A DNA stretch of 29,194 nt from a virus. How positions within the stretch are numbered: position 1 is the stretch's first letter; each line of letters starts with the position of its first letter. Where the stretch lies: IMG/VR virus record IMGVR_UViG_3300018405_000051, positions 1 through 29,194 of that record; one strand, given 5' to 3'. The notes under the pieces are model-generated. The model was not told the origin of the DNA. It saw nothing but the letters and a program-made list of their open reading frames with translations, and made no database searches. A program made the translations under genes and the position numbers. Below are positions 7,364-26,397 of the stretch, piece after piece.

Positions 7364-7921
7364 TTATTTTAATCGTTCTTTTAATAAATTGAGATGAACC
7401 ACTTCATCCGCTACTAATTTAGCAAGCAGTTGAAGAGCTATTTTAATGGTGGGAGTTTCTTCTAACTTCAAAAGTTTATCTTGTAACTTTTCATAAAAGT
7501 CAATTGTCTTTTCTTCTGCTCCGATAGCTATTTTGATTGCATCATCCTCATCCTTTCCTACGGTTACGCCTGAATTATTGAAACGCTGGTCAATCCTTCC
7601 TCCGATTTTACTGATAAAGTCAGATATTTTAGCATAATGTTTCATTTCAGTTAAACCTATACCAAGCATGAGTTCTCCAATATTTTCAAATGTAGCTTCC
7701 TGAGTAGTGTACATATGAATAGCAGTAAGCTCGGAGAAGTCATTGGTACCATTGAAAATGGGATAAAACCATTCAGCCATAACTCCATCATCAGACTTTG
7801 CTTTATCAAAACTTGGATATTCATATCCTGGATTGGAATAACGCATAGCATTCACAAGACCATCAGTAAGGTCGTCAAGCTGATTTTTACTCAACGGCTT
7901 TTTGATTGCAAAATTTTTCAT
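7364..7921 (-). CDS. Ferritin-like / rubrerythrin-type di-iron protein
   Basis: A 185-aa four-helix-bundle protein with the ligand pattern of the ferritin-like superfamily: E64, E92-x2-H95 (TEMKHY), E136/E137 (GAEEKT) and E173-x2-H176 (ADEVVH). The second and fourth helices thus carry ExxH pairs, as in rubrerythrins and bacterioferritin-like proteins. I chose the ATG at 7921 (MKNFAIKK); an ATG ten codons earlier (MIINKRF) would push further into the upstream gene. Even so it overlaps that gene's end by 35 nt. The family stores iron or removes peroxide and oxygen; which applies here is unknown. It sits between dUTPase and a class II RNR, although that RNR needs no iron. Confidence 0.75.
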   Translation of the reverse strand: MKNFAIKKPLSKNQLDDLTDGLVNAMRYSNPGYEYPSFDKAKSDDGVMAEWFYPIFNGTNDFSELTAIHMYTTQEATFENIGELMLGIGLTEMKHYAKISDFISKIGGRIDQRFNNSGVTVGKDEDDAIKIAIGAEEKTIDFYEKLQDKLLKLEETPTIKIALQLLAKLVADEVVHLNLLKERLK

Positions 7922-8123
7922 AATTATCCAAAACCTTTTGTTTATAATCATCGTTAGGAATACCCTTGCCGATTATACTACTTTCTACGATTTCAAAAAC
8001 TCCGTTTTCTACTCTACGCATAACAGTAGCGACGGAGAAGTCGCTGGAATGATTAGCGAAATCAACGCCTACAACCAAACCTCCTCCGTTGCTTATCATA
8101 TGGAATGAACCGTTCACGTACAT
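7887..8123 (-). CDS. Small RNase H-fold-like hypothetical protein, 78 aa
   Basis: A 78-aa protein beginning MYVNGSFHM, with a core VVGVDFANHSSDFSVATVM (17-35). A hydrophobic strand with an Asp, a turn and a second strand is how RNase H-like nuclease domains begin, and the terminase in this window has a similar stretch (GCDFAISANVGSDYTVFTTW). The protein is too short to be a complete nuclease of that fold, so it may be a fragment or only a local resemblance. It starts 2 nt below the dUTPase stop and overlaps the ferritin-like gene by 35 nt, so it is cotranscribed with both. Confidence 0.6.
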   Translation of the reverse strand: MYVNGSFHMISNGGGLVVGVDFANHSSDFSVATVMRRVENGVFEIVESSIIGKGIPNDDYKQKVLDNYEKFCNQKAVE

Positions 8124-19243: not shown

Positions 19244-19372
19244 TTATTTTGATTTTTCTTCAGGGTGTCGTTTGAAGTATTCTTCTAACACCTTGCCGTT
19301 ATTAACTTTCACTCCAAGTTCTTTTGCTATTGCCTCCAATTCTGGTAAGGCTTCAACTATGGTCTTTGACAT
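19244..19372 (-). CDS. Small hypothetical protein, 42 aa
   Basis: A short reading frame beginning MSKTIVEALPELEAIAKELG and ending YFKRHPEEKSK, mostly helical. It fills the space between the DenV-like gene (overlap 16 nt) and the lysozyme-like gene (gap 1 nt), the usual spacing in this gene string, and its composition is protein-like. It is too short for a recognisable domain. Confidence 0.6.
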   Translation of the reverse strand: MSKTIVEALPELEAIAKELGVKVNNGKVLEEYFKRHPEEKSK

Positions 19373-19821
19373 ATAACATTGTTTTTAGTTAGTATTTCAA
19401 TTGCTTTATCTTTAGTGATAGATTTACCTTCATAATGGAAGAAAGTCTTGCTACTGCCTTGTATTCTATCTGTAATGCGCTGAATAAGCAGTTCCTTCTC
19501 ATCCTCCGTAGGAACGTAACTGTTCCAATAATCTTTCATTAAAACTTGTTTCCAATTTTCGGAATAGTCTGGAACGTTAAAACCACGTCTTATACATTCT
19601 TCGTATATTTGTTTGTAACGGTCAAGAGTGAATTGAGCTTTGTCTAAAAAGAATGTAACATGTCCAGTTCCCAAAGTAAACTTCTTTGGTATTCTTTTCA
19701 AAGCTCCGCTTGTATAAGATTTAACGAAGCAAGCAGGCAATCTCTTTATCTCTCTATGCTCGGCAAGTAAATGTTCATCTGTTAAACGTCTTACTGATAT
19801 AGCACTATTTATTCTTGTCAT
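19357..19821 (-). CDS. denV: Pyrimidine-dimer DNA glycosylase (T4 endonuclease V family)
   Basis: A 154-aa homologue of T4 endonuclease V (DenV), a glycosylase/AP-lyase that starts repair of UV-induced cyclobutane pyrimidine dimers. The N-terminus MTRINSAISVRRLTDEHLLA is close to that of DenV. T2 becomes the catalytic N-terminal Thr after Met removal, and E24 in AEHREIKRLP corresponds to the catalytic Glu (E23 in T4). The segment LGTGHVTFFLDKAQF and the C-terminal KTFFHYEGKSI (T4: WYKYYGKAI) also match. It is slightly longer than T4 DenV (138 aa). It stands directly after the tmRNA terminator. The upstream element TAGCAAAGTTATTTTAAC may be its promoter. Confidence 0.93.
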   Translation of the reverse strand: MTRINSAISVRRLTDEHLLAEHREIKRLPACFVKSYTSGALKRIPKKFTLGTGHVTFFLDKAQFTLDRYKQIYEECIRRGFNVPDYSENWKQVLMKDYWNSYVPTEDEKELLIQRITDRIQGSSKTFFHYEGKSITKDKAIEILTKNNVICQRP

Positions 19822-19863
19822 AAATTATTTGTTTTTGTTAAAATAACTTTGCTAAAAAGAAAA

Positions 19864-19884
19864 GGGGCAACTTTCGCTTGCCCC
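19864..19884 (-). terminator. tmRNA terminator
   Basis: GGGGCAA / TTGCCCC (19884-19878 with 19870-19864), a 7-bp perfect stem with a 7-nt loop, followed by TTTTCTTTTT. It lies 10 nt below the tag stop codon and so sets the 3' end of the coding piece. Confidence 0.9.
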
Positions 19885-19894
19885 AAATCTCGGT

Positions 19895-19942
19895 TTACAC
19901 AACGGCTCTTAGCTGTTGAGGAAACATTTGAATTGTTTTGCC
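19895..19942 (-). other. tmRNA tag reading frame (15 codons plus TAA)
   Basis: The most likely resume codon is GGC (19942-19940), preceded at -5/-4 by TA as in E. coli tmRNA (UAGUC then GCA). It gives the tag GKTIQMFPQQLRAVV and TAA. A tag starting with Gly agrees with Bacteroidetes tags. A competing frame one base later (GCA) would give AKQFKCFLNS. The ending AVV differs from the usual LAA/VAA degradation signal. Confidence 0.6.
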
Positions 19943-20005
19943 ATTTAGGACTTTTGTAAGCTCTCCACTAATCATACTCATACGCTGTCAAATCCACTCA
20001 CCCCC

Positions 20006-20081
20006 GTGTGAAGGTTTTTGAAGAGCTACCTACAAACTCAGGGCTGCTGGTTAAGCAAATCCACCATCCTTTTTCAAGGAG
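20006..20081 (-). other. Intervening segment of the permuted tmRNA precursor
   Basis: 76 nt separate the acceptor 3' end from the coding-piece 5' end. It starts with a small hairpin, TCCTT-GAAA-AAGGA (20080-20067), one base beyond the discriminator-adjacent C. Excision of this segment would leave two RNAs held together by the acceptor stem and P2. Confidence 0.7.
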
Positions 20082-20135
20082 TGGAGGTGACGGGAATCGA
20101 ACCCGTGTCCAAACGTACTTTACTAAAAGTCTCAA

Positions 20136-20165
20136 CGAACTTACTTTATTTATAACTTTGCTAAT
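20136..20165 (-). promoter_or_regulatory. Putative tmRNA promoter
   Basis: The minus strand has TTAGCAAAGTTATAAATAAAG followed by TAAGTTCG (20143-20136), which resembles the -7 element of the helicase promoter (TAACTTCG). No TTTTG lies at the proper distance. The AGCAAAGTT core recurs before other transcription units. Confidence 0.45.
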
Positions 20166-24691: not shown

Positions 24692-25456
24692 CTAATTTTT
24701 ATTATTTCGTTCCTTGATTGTTATAATATCAGGGAACGCTTCTTGCATCCTTCTGGTTTCACTATTCATAAACTCTACATTTCTGTAAGTAGAACAACCG
24801 CCCTTAGCATTTGAACCGTTTGTTTTGTCAAATGCAAACCTGTTTGTTAATTTTATATCATATCCTATTTTTCGGATTGCTATTCCAGTAGCGAAGTCTT
24901 CCTTGATAGGCCAATCTGACATAAATACCTCACTCTGTGAATAGTATTTCTTACAATTTAATCCCCAAATAGCAAAAAACCTTTTATTATATTCAATATC
25001 AGGCATACCTTCTCTGTTGAACGGACGAAAAGAAATACCTGATATACCTACATTACTCTCTGACAATGAATCCCAAAGCCAATTAAACATTTCAAATTGA
25101 AATTCTTTTATTTCCTCATCAGAGAAATTATCTTTGTTAAGCACTCTTGGAGTCTTGTATCCCAATTGTCTAATACCGAACGTTATATTATCGTCCATAA
25201 ATATTATCTTTTCTTTAGGAGCATTGTAAGCTAACCATTCTCTTACTTCTGCTAAATTCTTACAAGAAGAATCGTATTCGCTGATTTCTTTTAGCTTCCC
25301 TCCCCAGTTCTTCTCATGTAGATTTTTCTCTCCTGGATGACAAAACAAAGAAATATGTTTTAGCACTTCCGGATGTAACCTTTGCAGAGTTTTTTGAGCG
25401 TCAACTCTACCTCTTGTTGTTAAAGCAATGAATATGTCTTTATTTATTTTTCCCAT
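24692..25456 (-). CDS. GT-A glycosyltransferase, TET-associated (TAGT)-like
   Basis: A 254-aa protein resembling the phage TET-associated glycosyltransferases, which attach sugars to oxidised bases in DNA. It opens with a nucleotide-sugar-binding strand (IFIALTTRGRVDAQKTL, 8-24). A helix with R72 (AEVREWL) follows, then the DxD-like metal site IIFMDDNITFGIR (D88-D89, 84-96). Later come GISGISFRPF and a DFATGIAIRKIGYDIKL segment, the usual place of the acceptor-side acid and helix. It overlaps the radical SAM gene by 13 nt, so the two are translationally coupled. The TAG stop is followed by a further 20 open codons. A protein or small-molecule acceptor cannot be excluded. Confidence 0.7.
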   Translation of the reverse strand: MGKINKDIFIALTTRGRVDAQKTLQRLHPEVLKHISLFCHPGEKNLHEKNWGGKLKEISEYDSSCKNLAEVREWLAYNAPKEKIIFMDDNITFGIRQLGYKTPRVLNKDNFSDEEIKEFQFEMFNWLWDSLSESNVGISGISFRPFNREGMPDIEYNKRFFAIWGLNCKKYYSQSEVFMSDWPIKEDFATGIAIRKIGYDIKLTNRFAFDKTNGSNAKGGCSTYRNVEFMNSETRRMQEAFPDIITIKERNNKN

Positions 25457-26397
25457 GGTCTTTTAACAATATCAGATAATGATGCGTTTTCTTTAGAAAC
25501 TTTGACTGCTATATTTCTAACTTCTTTTGTTATAGAAGGTAATGTTTTCTTGCCTAACTTATCAGGAAGCAATCCTACACGCATGCTTACACTATTACAT
25601 ATATTACAAGGGAAAAATCCCCTGTCACCATTATACAACATTATTCTTGCTGCTTGGAATCTTTCATGATTCCAAAGTGAAATAATATCCATGTCATTTA
25701 TATTAGCAATAGGATATTGACCTCTGAAATCGTCACAACAAATAGAAACATTACCGTCCCAACGAAATGATAATTCTCTGAAAGGGACTGTGCATCTTTT
25801 ATCAGCATATCCTTCAGCAGGAGGAAAAGCAGCACCGCAATGATTCTTTAAGTTTCTAACATAACTTATTTTAACATCAACTATTGGAGGCAATACAAGT
25901 ATGTCAAACTTCTTGGTATGGGAAAACATTGGTATTCCTTTATCCATATATATTATTTCCTTCTTACCTTCAACTGCTTTTACAACTTTACTCCAGTCTC
26001 CTTTTTCTGAATAGTTATCAAGCAATAAATGATTTACTCCGCAATCTTCCAAAAGATTCACATAATCTAATATATCCTCCGATTCTACAATACCCTTGCC
26101 GTTAGATATTACATAAAATATATTATTTGGTAAATCTTTCCTGAATATGTCTACTATCTCAAATATATTTTCATTTAAAGTTGGTTCGCCATGCATAGCA
26201 AACACAATCTTCGAACTCCATTTTGCTTTCTTTATTTCAGAAGCAATACGCTTTGCTGTTTTAATACTCATAAACTTCCAAGGTCTGGTCCCCTTTTCTC
26301 TCATTCCTCTTAGACCGCAAAACTTACAACCTAAGTTACAACCTTCCGTCAACTCTATTTGTACCGTAAATGGAGCTTCTTGATTTTCTATTTTCAT
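25444..26397 (-). CDS. Radical SAM/SPASM enzyme
   Basis: A 317-aa radical SAM protein. The [4Fe-4S] cluster motif is C20-x3-C24-x2-C27 (EGCNLGCKFCGLRG), the GEP motif is HGEPTLNE (69-76), and IYMD / VLPP strands follow the barrel order. The C-terminal third is a SPASM-type domain with auxiliary cluster Cys at 187, 202, 220, 221, 264 and 267 (SFRWDGNVSICCDDF, FPCNICN). It would use SAM and iron-sulfur clusters to abstract hydrogen from a substrate. Coupling to the glycosyltransferase gene suggests both act on the same molecule; a modified DNA base is my preferred guess, a peptide or glycan is the alternative. Confidence 0.9.
   Translation of the reverse strand: MKIENQEAPFTVQIELTEGCNLGCKFCGLRGMREKGTRPWKFMSIKTAKRIASEIKKAKWSSKIVFAMHGEPTLNENIFEIVDIFRKDLPNNIFYVISNGKGIVESEDILDYVNLLEDCGVNHLLLDNYSEKGDWSKVVKAVEGKKEIIYMDKGIPMFSHTKKFDILVLPPIVDVKISYVRNLKNHCGAAFPPAEGYADKRCTVPFRELSFRWDGNVSICCDDFRGQYPIANINDMDIISLWNHERFQAARIMLYNGDRGFFPCNICNSVSMRVGLLPDKLGKKTLPSITKEVRNIAVKVSKENASLSDIVKRPWEK

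Follow-up and report, generated by a model that had tools for sequence, protein, structure and literature searches.

A circularly permuted tmRNA gene in Bacteroidota phages: a probable fourth lineage of split tmRNA, carried by phages

We analyzed a viral stretch of 29,194 nucleotides from IMG/VR (record IMGVR_UViG_3300018405_000051, hereafter the window) and found a circularly permuted (two-piece) tmRNA gene on its minus strand, at 20144-19864. Read 5' to 3' on that strand, an acceptor half is followed by a spacer, a coding half with the tag and a terminator. The acceptor piece (20083-20144), which comes first in the gene but forms the 3' portion of the tmRNA, holds the 3' strands of P2c (GUAAGUUC, 20137-20144) and P2a (GUACGUU, 20112-20118), the motif TGGAC, a T arm (ACGGG-UUCGAUU-CCCGU, 20090-20106) and the 3' strand of the acceptor stem (CACCUCC, 20083-20089), where CCA is only partly encoded. 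The spacer between the two acceptor ends (20006-20082), expected to be cut out of the transcript, measures 77 nt from CTCC to GGGG; an earlier reading of the DNA, made from the sequence only and naming no strand, had correctly noted its presence but counted 76 nt. The coding piece starts with the 5' strand of the acceptor stem (GGGGGUG, 19999-20005), which pairs with CACCUCC and is directly followed by GGATTTGAC. The piece also holds the conserved GGAUUUGAC of the tRNA-like domain (19987-19995), with a Bacteroidia-type UUUGAC, the 5' strand of P2a (AGCGUAU, 19980-19986), pairing with GUACGUU, and that of P2c (GAGCUUAC, 19956-19963), predicted by duplex calculation to pair with GUAAGUUC. The tag reading frame called by ARAGORN (19895-19942) encodes GKTIQMFPQQLRAVV and a stop, with GGC as the resume codon, and leads directly into an intrinsic terminator, a hairpin at 19864-19884 followed by UUUUCUUUUU. 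The terminator stem lies 10 nt past the tag stop, as had been claimed, and is kept in two other copies (L002 and L080, below). Outside the RNA, the downstream neighbor on the same strand is a pyrimidine-dimer DNA glycosylase of the T4 DenV type (19357-19821; PF03013, 2.9e-10; phrog_1183).

Covariance models and a dedicated gene finder agreed on this layout. Rfam cmscan of the whole window at the gathering threshold returned a sole match, RF04321 (tmRNA_permuted), spanning 20140-19925 with 59.6 bits (E 2.3e-9) against a curated cut-off of 47 bits, and ARAGORN independently called a permuted tmRNA at the locus, bearing out the order proposed from the sequence. The standard tmRNA model, RF00023, scored 41.3 bits against a cut-off of 47 and was recognizable in its 3' part only, so no standard-order tmRNA, which had been named among the findings that would count against permutation, overlaps the locus. 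The lineage models for alpha (RF01849), beta (RF01850) and cyano (RF01851) tmRNA gave 23.3, 35.1 and 38.5 bits, none reaching the respective cut-offs of 50, 84 and 70. Since the named control genomes miss the beta and cyano cut-offs too, those two scores alone exclude neither lineage, and alpha is the sole clean exclusion among the three. The fold of the whole precursor was no more stable than that of shuffled sequences (z -0.56); it is the models and the covariation, and not folding energy, that carry the argument.

The gene order is kept in one close relative (L002) and in about 30 more distant phage copies. L002 was reached via the downstream glycosylase (92% identical), and its tmRNA also scores above the RF04321 cut-off. 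Both tmRNA halves are nearly unchanged there, with zero substitutions in the acceptor piece and an A-U to G-U change in P2c, while the upstream gene differs and the spacer, at 139 nt, is partly unrelated. A direct repeat, AGCAAAGTTAT on the minus strand, stands on both sides of the tmRNA gene in the window (19843-19853 and 20152-20162); homology with L002 begins exactly at the upstream GCAAAGTTAT, with another gene beyond, an arrangement that would suit a cassette passed between genomes. The spacers of the window, L002, L080 and L089, otherwise different copies, also have in common a GGTGGA...GTTTGTAGGT...AAACCTTC-like block just 5' of the coding half, which may serve in processing or folding.

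More distant copies were found by two routes. BLASTN of the window RNA against phage records gave 0 matches at E 1e-5 and, at E 10, T-arm matches only, mostly in unrelated phages; an exact permuted pattern with a fixed T loop likewise had 0 matches among viral contigs. A looser permuted-gene pattern with TTTGAC yielded 16 more IMG/VR contigs, all of them (16/16) above the RF04321 cut-off; one of these is also a relative of the window phage by its terminase (87%) and by a 410-aa protein. The pattern behind these 16 viral copies and L108 held both the acceptor stem and UUUGAC fixed, and UUUGAC was likewise a condition of the extraction script. Independently of the pattern, RF04321 exceeded its cut-off in 9 of 35 records to which the terminase and a second protein of the phage had led, and these nine copies are free of any search-pattern constraint. 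Spacer length ranges from 40 to 185 nt across 27 loci. The gene is thus phage-borne, as first proposed, but it belongs to a widespread class and is not unique to the window phage.

Several candidates fell away. The Cellulophaga phages Calle_1 and phi40:1 likewise carry a tmRNA as Bacteroidota phages, but theirs is in standard order and not permuted; LT996079, MT836666 and MT836377 lack a coding half downstream; MT837964, a T-arm match, is not permuted; and an RF04321 search of a Lak phage and Phass-1 gave no match. The contig L010, which holds a relative of the window's glycosylase gene (52% identical), has a tmRNA that is not permuted either, a standard-order gene at 7601-8046 with a 25-residue tag, AMSKWNEVDETPVYSINRSQLAMAV.

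We then asked how the pairings that cross the permutation behave among the copies. The 7-bp acceptor stem formed by GGGGGTG and CACCTCC across the break is intact in 28/28 non-redundant copies, with two-sided changes at pair 4 (GC/CG), pair 5 (GC/CG/AU), pair 6 (UA/AU) and pair 7 (GC/AU/UA); double changes at pairs 4-7 also occur in the 13 copies that were not found by the stem-fixing pattern. Pair 3 is G3-U70, invariant in all 28, and G3-U70 is the alanine identity pair. The 5-bp stem of the T arm (20106-20090 in the window) is paired in 28/28 copies and shows many kinds of compensatory change. For the start of P2, AGCGTAT with GTACGTT in the window, 137 of 189 P2a positions are paired across 27 loci, against a maximum of 120 in 2000 partner shuffles. 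When applied to the joined pieces, RNAalifold returned the acceptor stem and the T arm and missed P2 because of length variation, so a cognate versus non-cognate duplex test was used instead. The whole P2 duplex averaged -16.2 kcal/mol for cognate and -10.8 kcal/mol for non-cognate partners, with 0/5000 permutations reaching the cognate value; for distal P2 alone, cognate partners again beat non-cognate ones (0/5000 permutations). Each of the three pairings named in the sequence-only reading is therefore present, and the covariation it asked for in relatives takes the form of compensatory acceptor-stem changes and cognate P2 pairing.

The tag is conserved as a reading frame. L002 encodes GKIIQMFPQQLRAVA and a stop, preserving the frame of the window; the +1 frame (AKQFKCFLNS) was rejected, a stop codon interrupting it in L002. 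Across the class the tag frame is kept, the resume codon is mostly GGC, and tags end in, for example, LRAVA, VRLAA or AMAA. P2c and the resume codon lie about 13 nt apart, which leaves no room for the pseudoknot PK1 if P2c forms as predicted, and the phage copies appear to lack PK1. This differs from two-piece tmRNAs as reviewed in PMC3985003, whose coding pieces typically have PK1 and PK2. In about half of the copies, judged by eye in the alignment, a small GCC...GGC-like hairpin includes the resume codon.

Next, we considered the hosts. The permuted form occurs in Maribacter phage Panino (RF04321, 62.2 bits), which was isolated on a member of the Flavobacteriaceae; the paper describing this phage reports a tmRNA gene and does not use the term "permuted" (PMC11590407). 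Chryseobacterium phage MA9V-3 (PMC13120357), with UUUCGAC in place of UUUGAC, and the crAss-like phages cr7_1, cr124_1 and cr10_1 also exceed the RF04321 cut-off, and crAss-like phage cr125_1 shows the same permuted order by inspection. In cr125_1 (NC_055900.1; L326, 788-956), a RAGATH-9 RNA (RF03146, 154 bits) ends immediately 5' of the acceptor half. Permuted copies in Bacteroidota phages had been annotated before only as "tmRNA", and those of crAss-like gut phages simply as "SsrA", so annotation hides the permuted form.

Among 395 Bacteroidota genomes, RF04321 exceeded its cut-off in only two, a prophage in genome G293 and a contig of a Bacteroidales MAG. The G293 gene adjoins tRNA genes inside a prophage that encodes an integrase and a ring protein of crAss type, and the same 1.6-Mb contig continues after the prophage with chromosomal glpD, glpK, SusC and SusD; a standard tmRNA (160 bits) is present in G293 too. 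The element, at about 930-998 kb of contig C1 (L318, L320, L174, L321), carries CrAss_Ring_1 (PF24228) and a tyrosine integrase and sits within a Bacteroidota chromosome; this Crassvirales-like prophage spans at least 65 kb. In the MAG, the short contig that bears the permuted gene also encodes phage-like proteins, members of PHROG families of unknown function, and the genome has a standard tmRNA at another place. The statement that Bacteroidota hosts use one-piece tmRNA holds for 60 of 61 sampled genomes, in which the standard form exceeds its cut-off.

A Bacteroidota host, as proposed earlier, is well supported for the class by Panino, MA9V-3, the Crassvirales genomes and the chromosomal prophage. 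For the window phage itself it is probable, judging from terminases and leader composition: the nearest named terminases are from Bacteroides phages (about 36% identity), a Shine-Dalgarno-like motif precedes 6/42 genes, compared with 17% at random ATGs, and leaders are 49% A. Bacteroidota are known for lacking Shine-Dalgarno motifs. Elsewhere in the window, at 24692-26397, a radical SAM protein adjoins a protein like the T4 beta-glucosyl-HMC-alpha-glucosyltransferase, possibly a DNA or glycan modification pair. At 7364-7951, a ferritin-like protein (a weak match, below the Pfam cut-off) adjoins the large subunit of ribonucleotide reductase and could be its small subunit or an unrelated ferritin-like protein.

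Permuted tmRNA is known from three main bacterial lineages (PMC11915505, PMC3985003) and has already been described in marine phages (PMC9004378); in the main texts of the open-access literature searched, we found no report of it in Bacteroidota or their phages. The window gene has what RF04321 tmRNAs have: acceptor half, spacer and coding half in that order, an acceptor stem and P2 across the break, a tag and a score above the cut-off. Like the two-piece tmRNAs of Melnitz, pelagiphages and cyanophages (PMC9004378), it is a permuted tmRNA in the genome of a tailed phage. Those marine copies, however, resemble alpha, gamma or cyanobacterial host genes, from lineages with two-piece tmRNA, whereas here the host phylum has the one-piece form. 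Relative to the alpha, beta and cyano lineages, the gene differs in falling below all three model cut-offs (a shortfall that beta and cyano controls also show), in its Bacteroidia-type core, in a tag that begins with Gly and in a distance of 37-45 nt from GAC to the tag. In sequence it resembles the one-piece tmRNA that is standard in Bacteroidia, where the tag is GENNYALAA or similar; the two have in common UUUUGACAGC, GUUUGGAC, the UAAxUGGC resume context and the Gly-first tag; the Bacteroidia gene differs in its standard order, its GAC-to-tag distance of about 77 nt and its longer RNA.

How such a gene arose was left earlier as a separate origin or a transfer, and our comparison favors a separate permutation from a Bacteroidia-type gene as the best reading, short of proof. 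The core consensus of the phage class (TGG-TTTTGACAGC / TAAatGGC / GTTTGGAC) equals that of standard Bacteroidia tmRNA (CTGGTTTTGACAGC / TAAATGGC / GTTTGGAC), while phage permuted tmRNAs of the UUCGAC type with AND-type tags read GGTTTCGACAGGG / GTAAACGC / TTCTGGAC. By mean distance over this 43-nt core, from which a tree is poorly resolved, 24 of 26 phage copies are nearest to standard Bacteroidia tmRNA. The likeness is partly built in, because TTTGAC was a condition of both the scan pattern and the extraction script, neither of which constrained the 3' signature or the Gly-first tag. Transfer would mean that an alpha- or cyanobacterial-type permuted phage tmRNA later became Bacteroidia-like through recombination or convergence with the host gene. 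Material for it is at hand: UUCGAC permuted tmRNAs with AND-type tags are common in IMG/VR phages (at least 120 matches), phages exchange RNA genes, as in Melnitz with its SAR11-type tmRNA and non-alphaproteobacterial host (PMC9004378), and MA9V-3 has UUUCGACAGC. Yet the core is Bacteroidia-like at either end, as is the tag with its leading Gly, and the low alpha, beta and cyano scores (23, 35 and 38 bits) speak against it as well, the latter two with the limit that control genomes also miss those cut-offs. The 37-45 nt from GAC to the tag also contrast with about 63-67 nt in UUCGAC copies, a comparison made on recognizable AN-, AD-, AE-, AK- and AQ-type tags, many tags in that set being mis-called by a simple script. 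We consider transfer unlikely. The short distance, common to all members, points to one origin of the class, and the Bacteroidia signature (TTTTGACAGC, GTTTGGAC and the Gly-first tag) in phage genes suggests a fourth, independent permutation.

Taken as a whole, the locus very probably holds a phage-encoded permuted tmRNA of a class present in diverse Bacteroidota phages (including Crassvirales), Bacteroidia-like in sequence, most likely permuted separately from the alpha, beta and cyanobacterial genes and predicted to act with host SmpB. Its working can be modeled on the two-piece tmRNA of Caulobacter, which is functional according to work cited in PMC3985003 and on whose processing, alanine loading and SmpB delivery we base the scheme by analogy. 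Acceptor half, spacer, coding half and terminator would be transcribed as one RNA, and host tRNA enzymes would excise the spacer: RNase P would make the 5' acceptor end, and tRNase Z or exonucleases the 3' one, to which CCA would be added. The two pieces, held together by the acceptor stem and P2, would form the tRNA-like domain, be charged by alanyl-tRNA synthetase via the G3-U70 pair, enter stalled ribosomes with host SmpB, resume at GGC and add GKTIQMFPQQLRAVV; we infer each of these steps, from transcription to tagging, as well as a benefit to the phage. A decoy or defective RNA might instead occupy SmpB or host tmRNA sites and add no tag, as proposed for the RNA of Mycobacterium phage DS6A, which consists of a tRNA-like domain only; a phage RNA of that make-up inhibits tmRNA (PMC4131195, PMC11915505). 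The apparent absence of PK1, with little present besides a tRNA-like domain and tag, would suit such a role, but unlike the DS6A type this class has a conserved tag frame, and diverse phages retain the resume codon and the hydrophobic C-terminus but not the alternative frame, which makes a decoy improbable. That a tRNA-like T arm merely lies by chance beside an unrelated GGGGGTG run is hardly credible: T-arm sequences are common in phages, but the window's model match has an E of 2.3e-9, L002 retains both halves despite a different upstream gene and a partly altered spacer, and the covariation across copies in relatives already refutes it.

The gene, phage-encoded and most likely separately permuted, appears to represent a fourth lineage of split tmRNA, borne by phages of a phylum whose bacteria have a normal one-piece gene. 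A stronger version can be offered tentatively, and we would not lean on it: a fourth independent origin confined to Bacteroidota phages and prophages, without PK1 (and in the window without PK2), whose own GKxIxMF..LRAVA-type tag, as opposed to the host's GENNYALAA, might let the phage reset the degradation signal on rescued proteins during infection. The class provides a compact tmRNA for probing the need for pseudoknots, and Maribacter phage Panino and Chryseobacterium phage MA9V-3 are cultured systems in which to ask why phages carry tmRNA. A separate permutation in phages, absent from the sampled host chromosomes, would, if true, mean that evolution has come to this architecture time and again, with viruses among its possible birthplaces.
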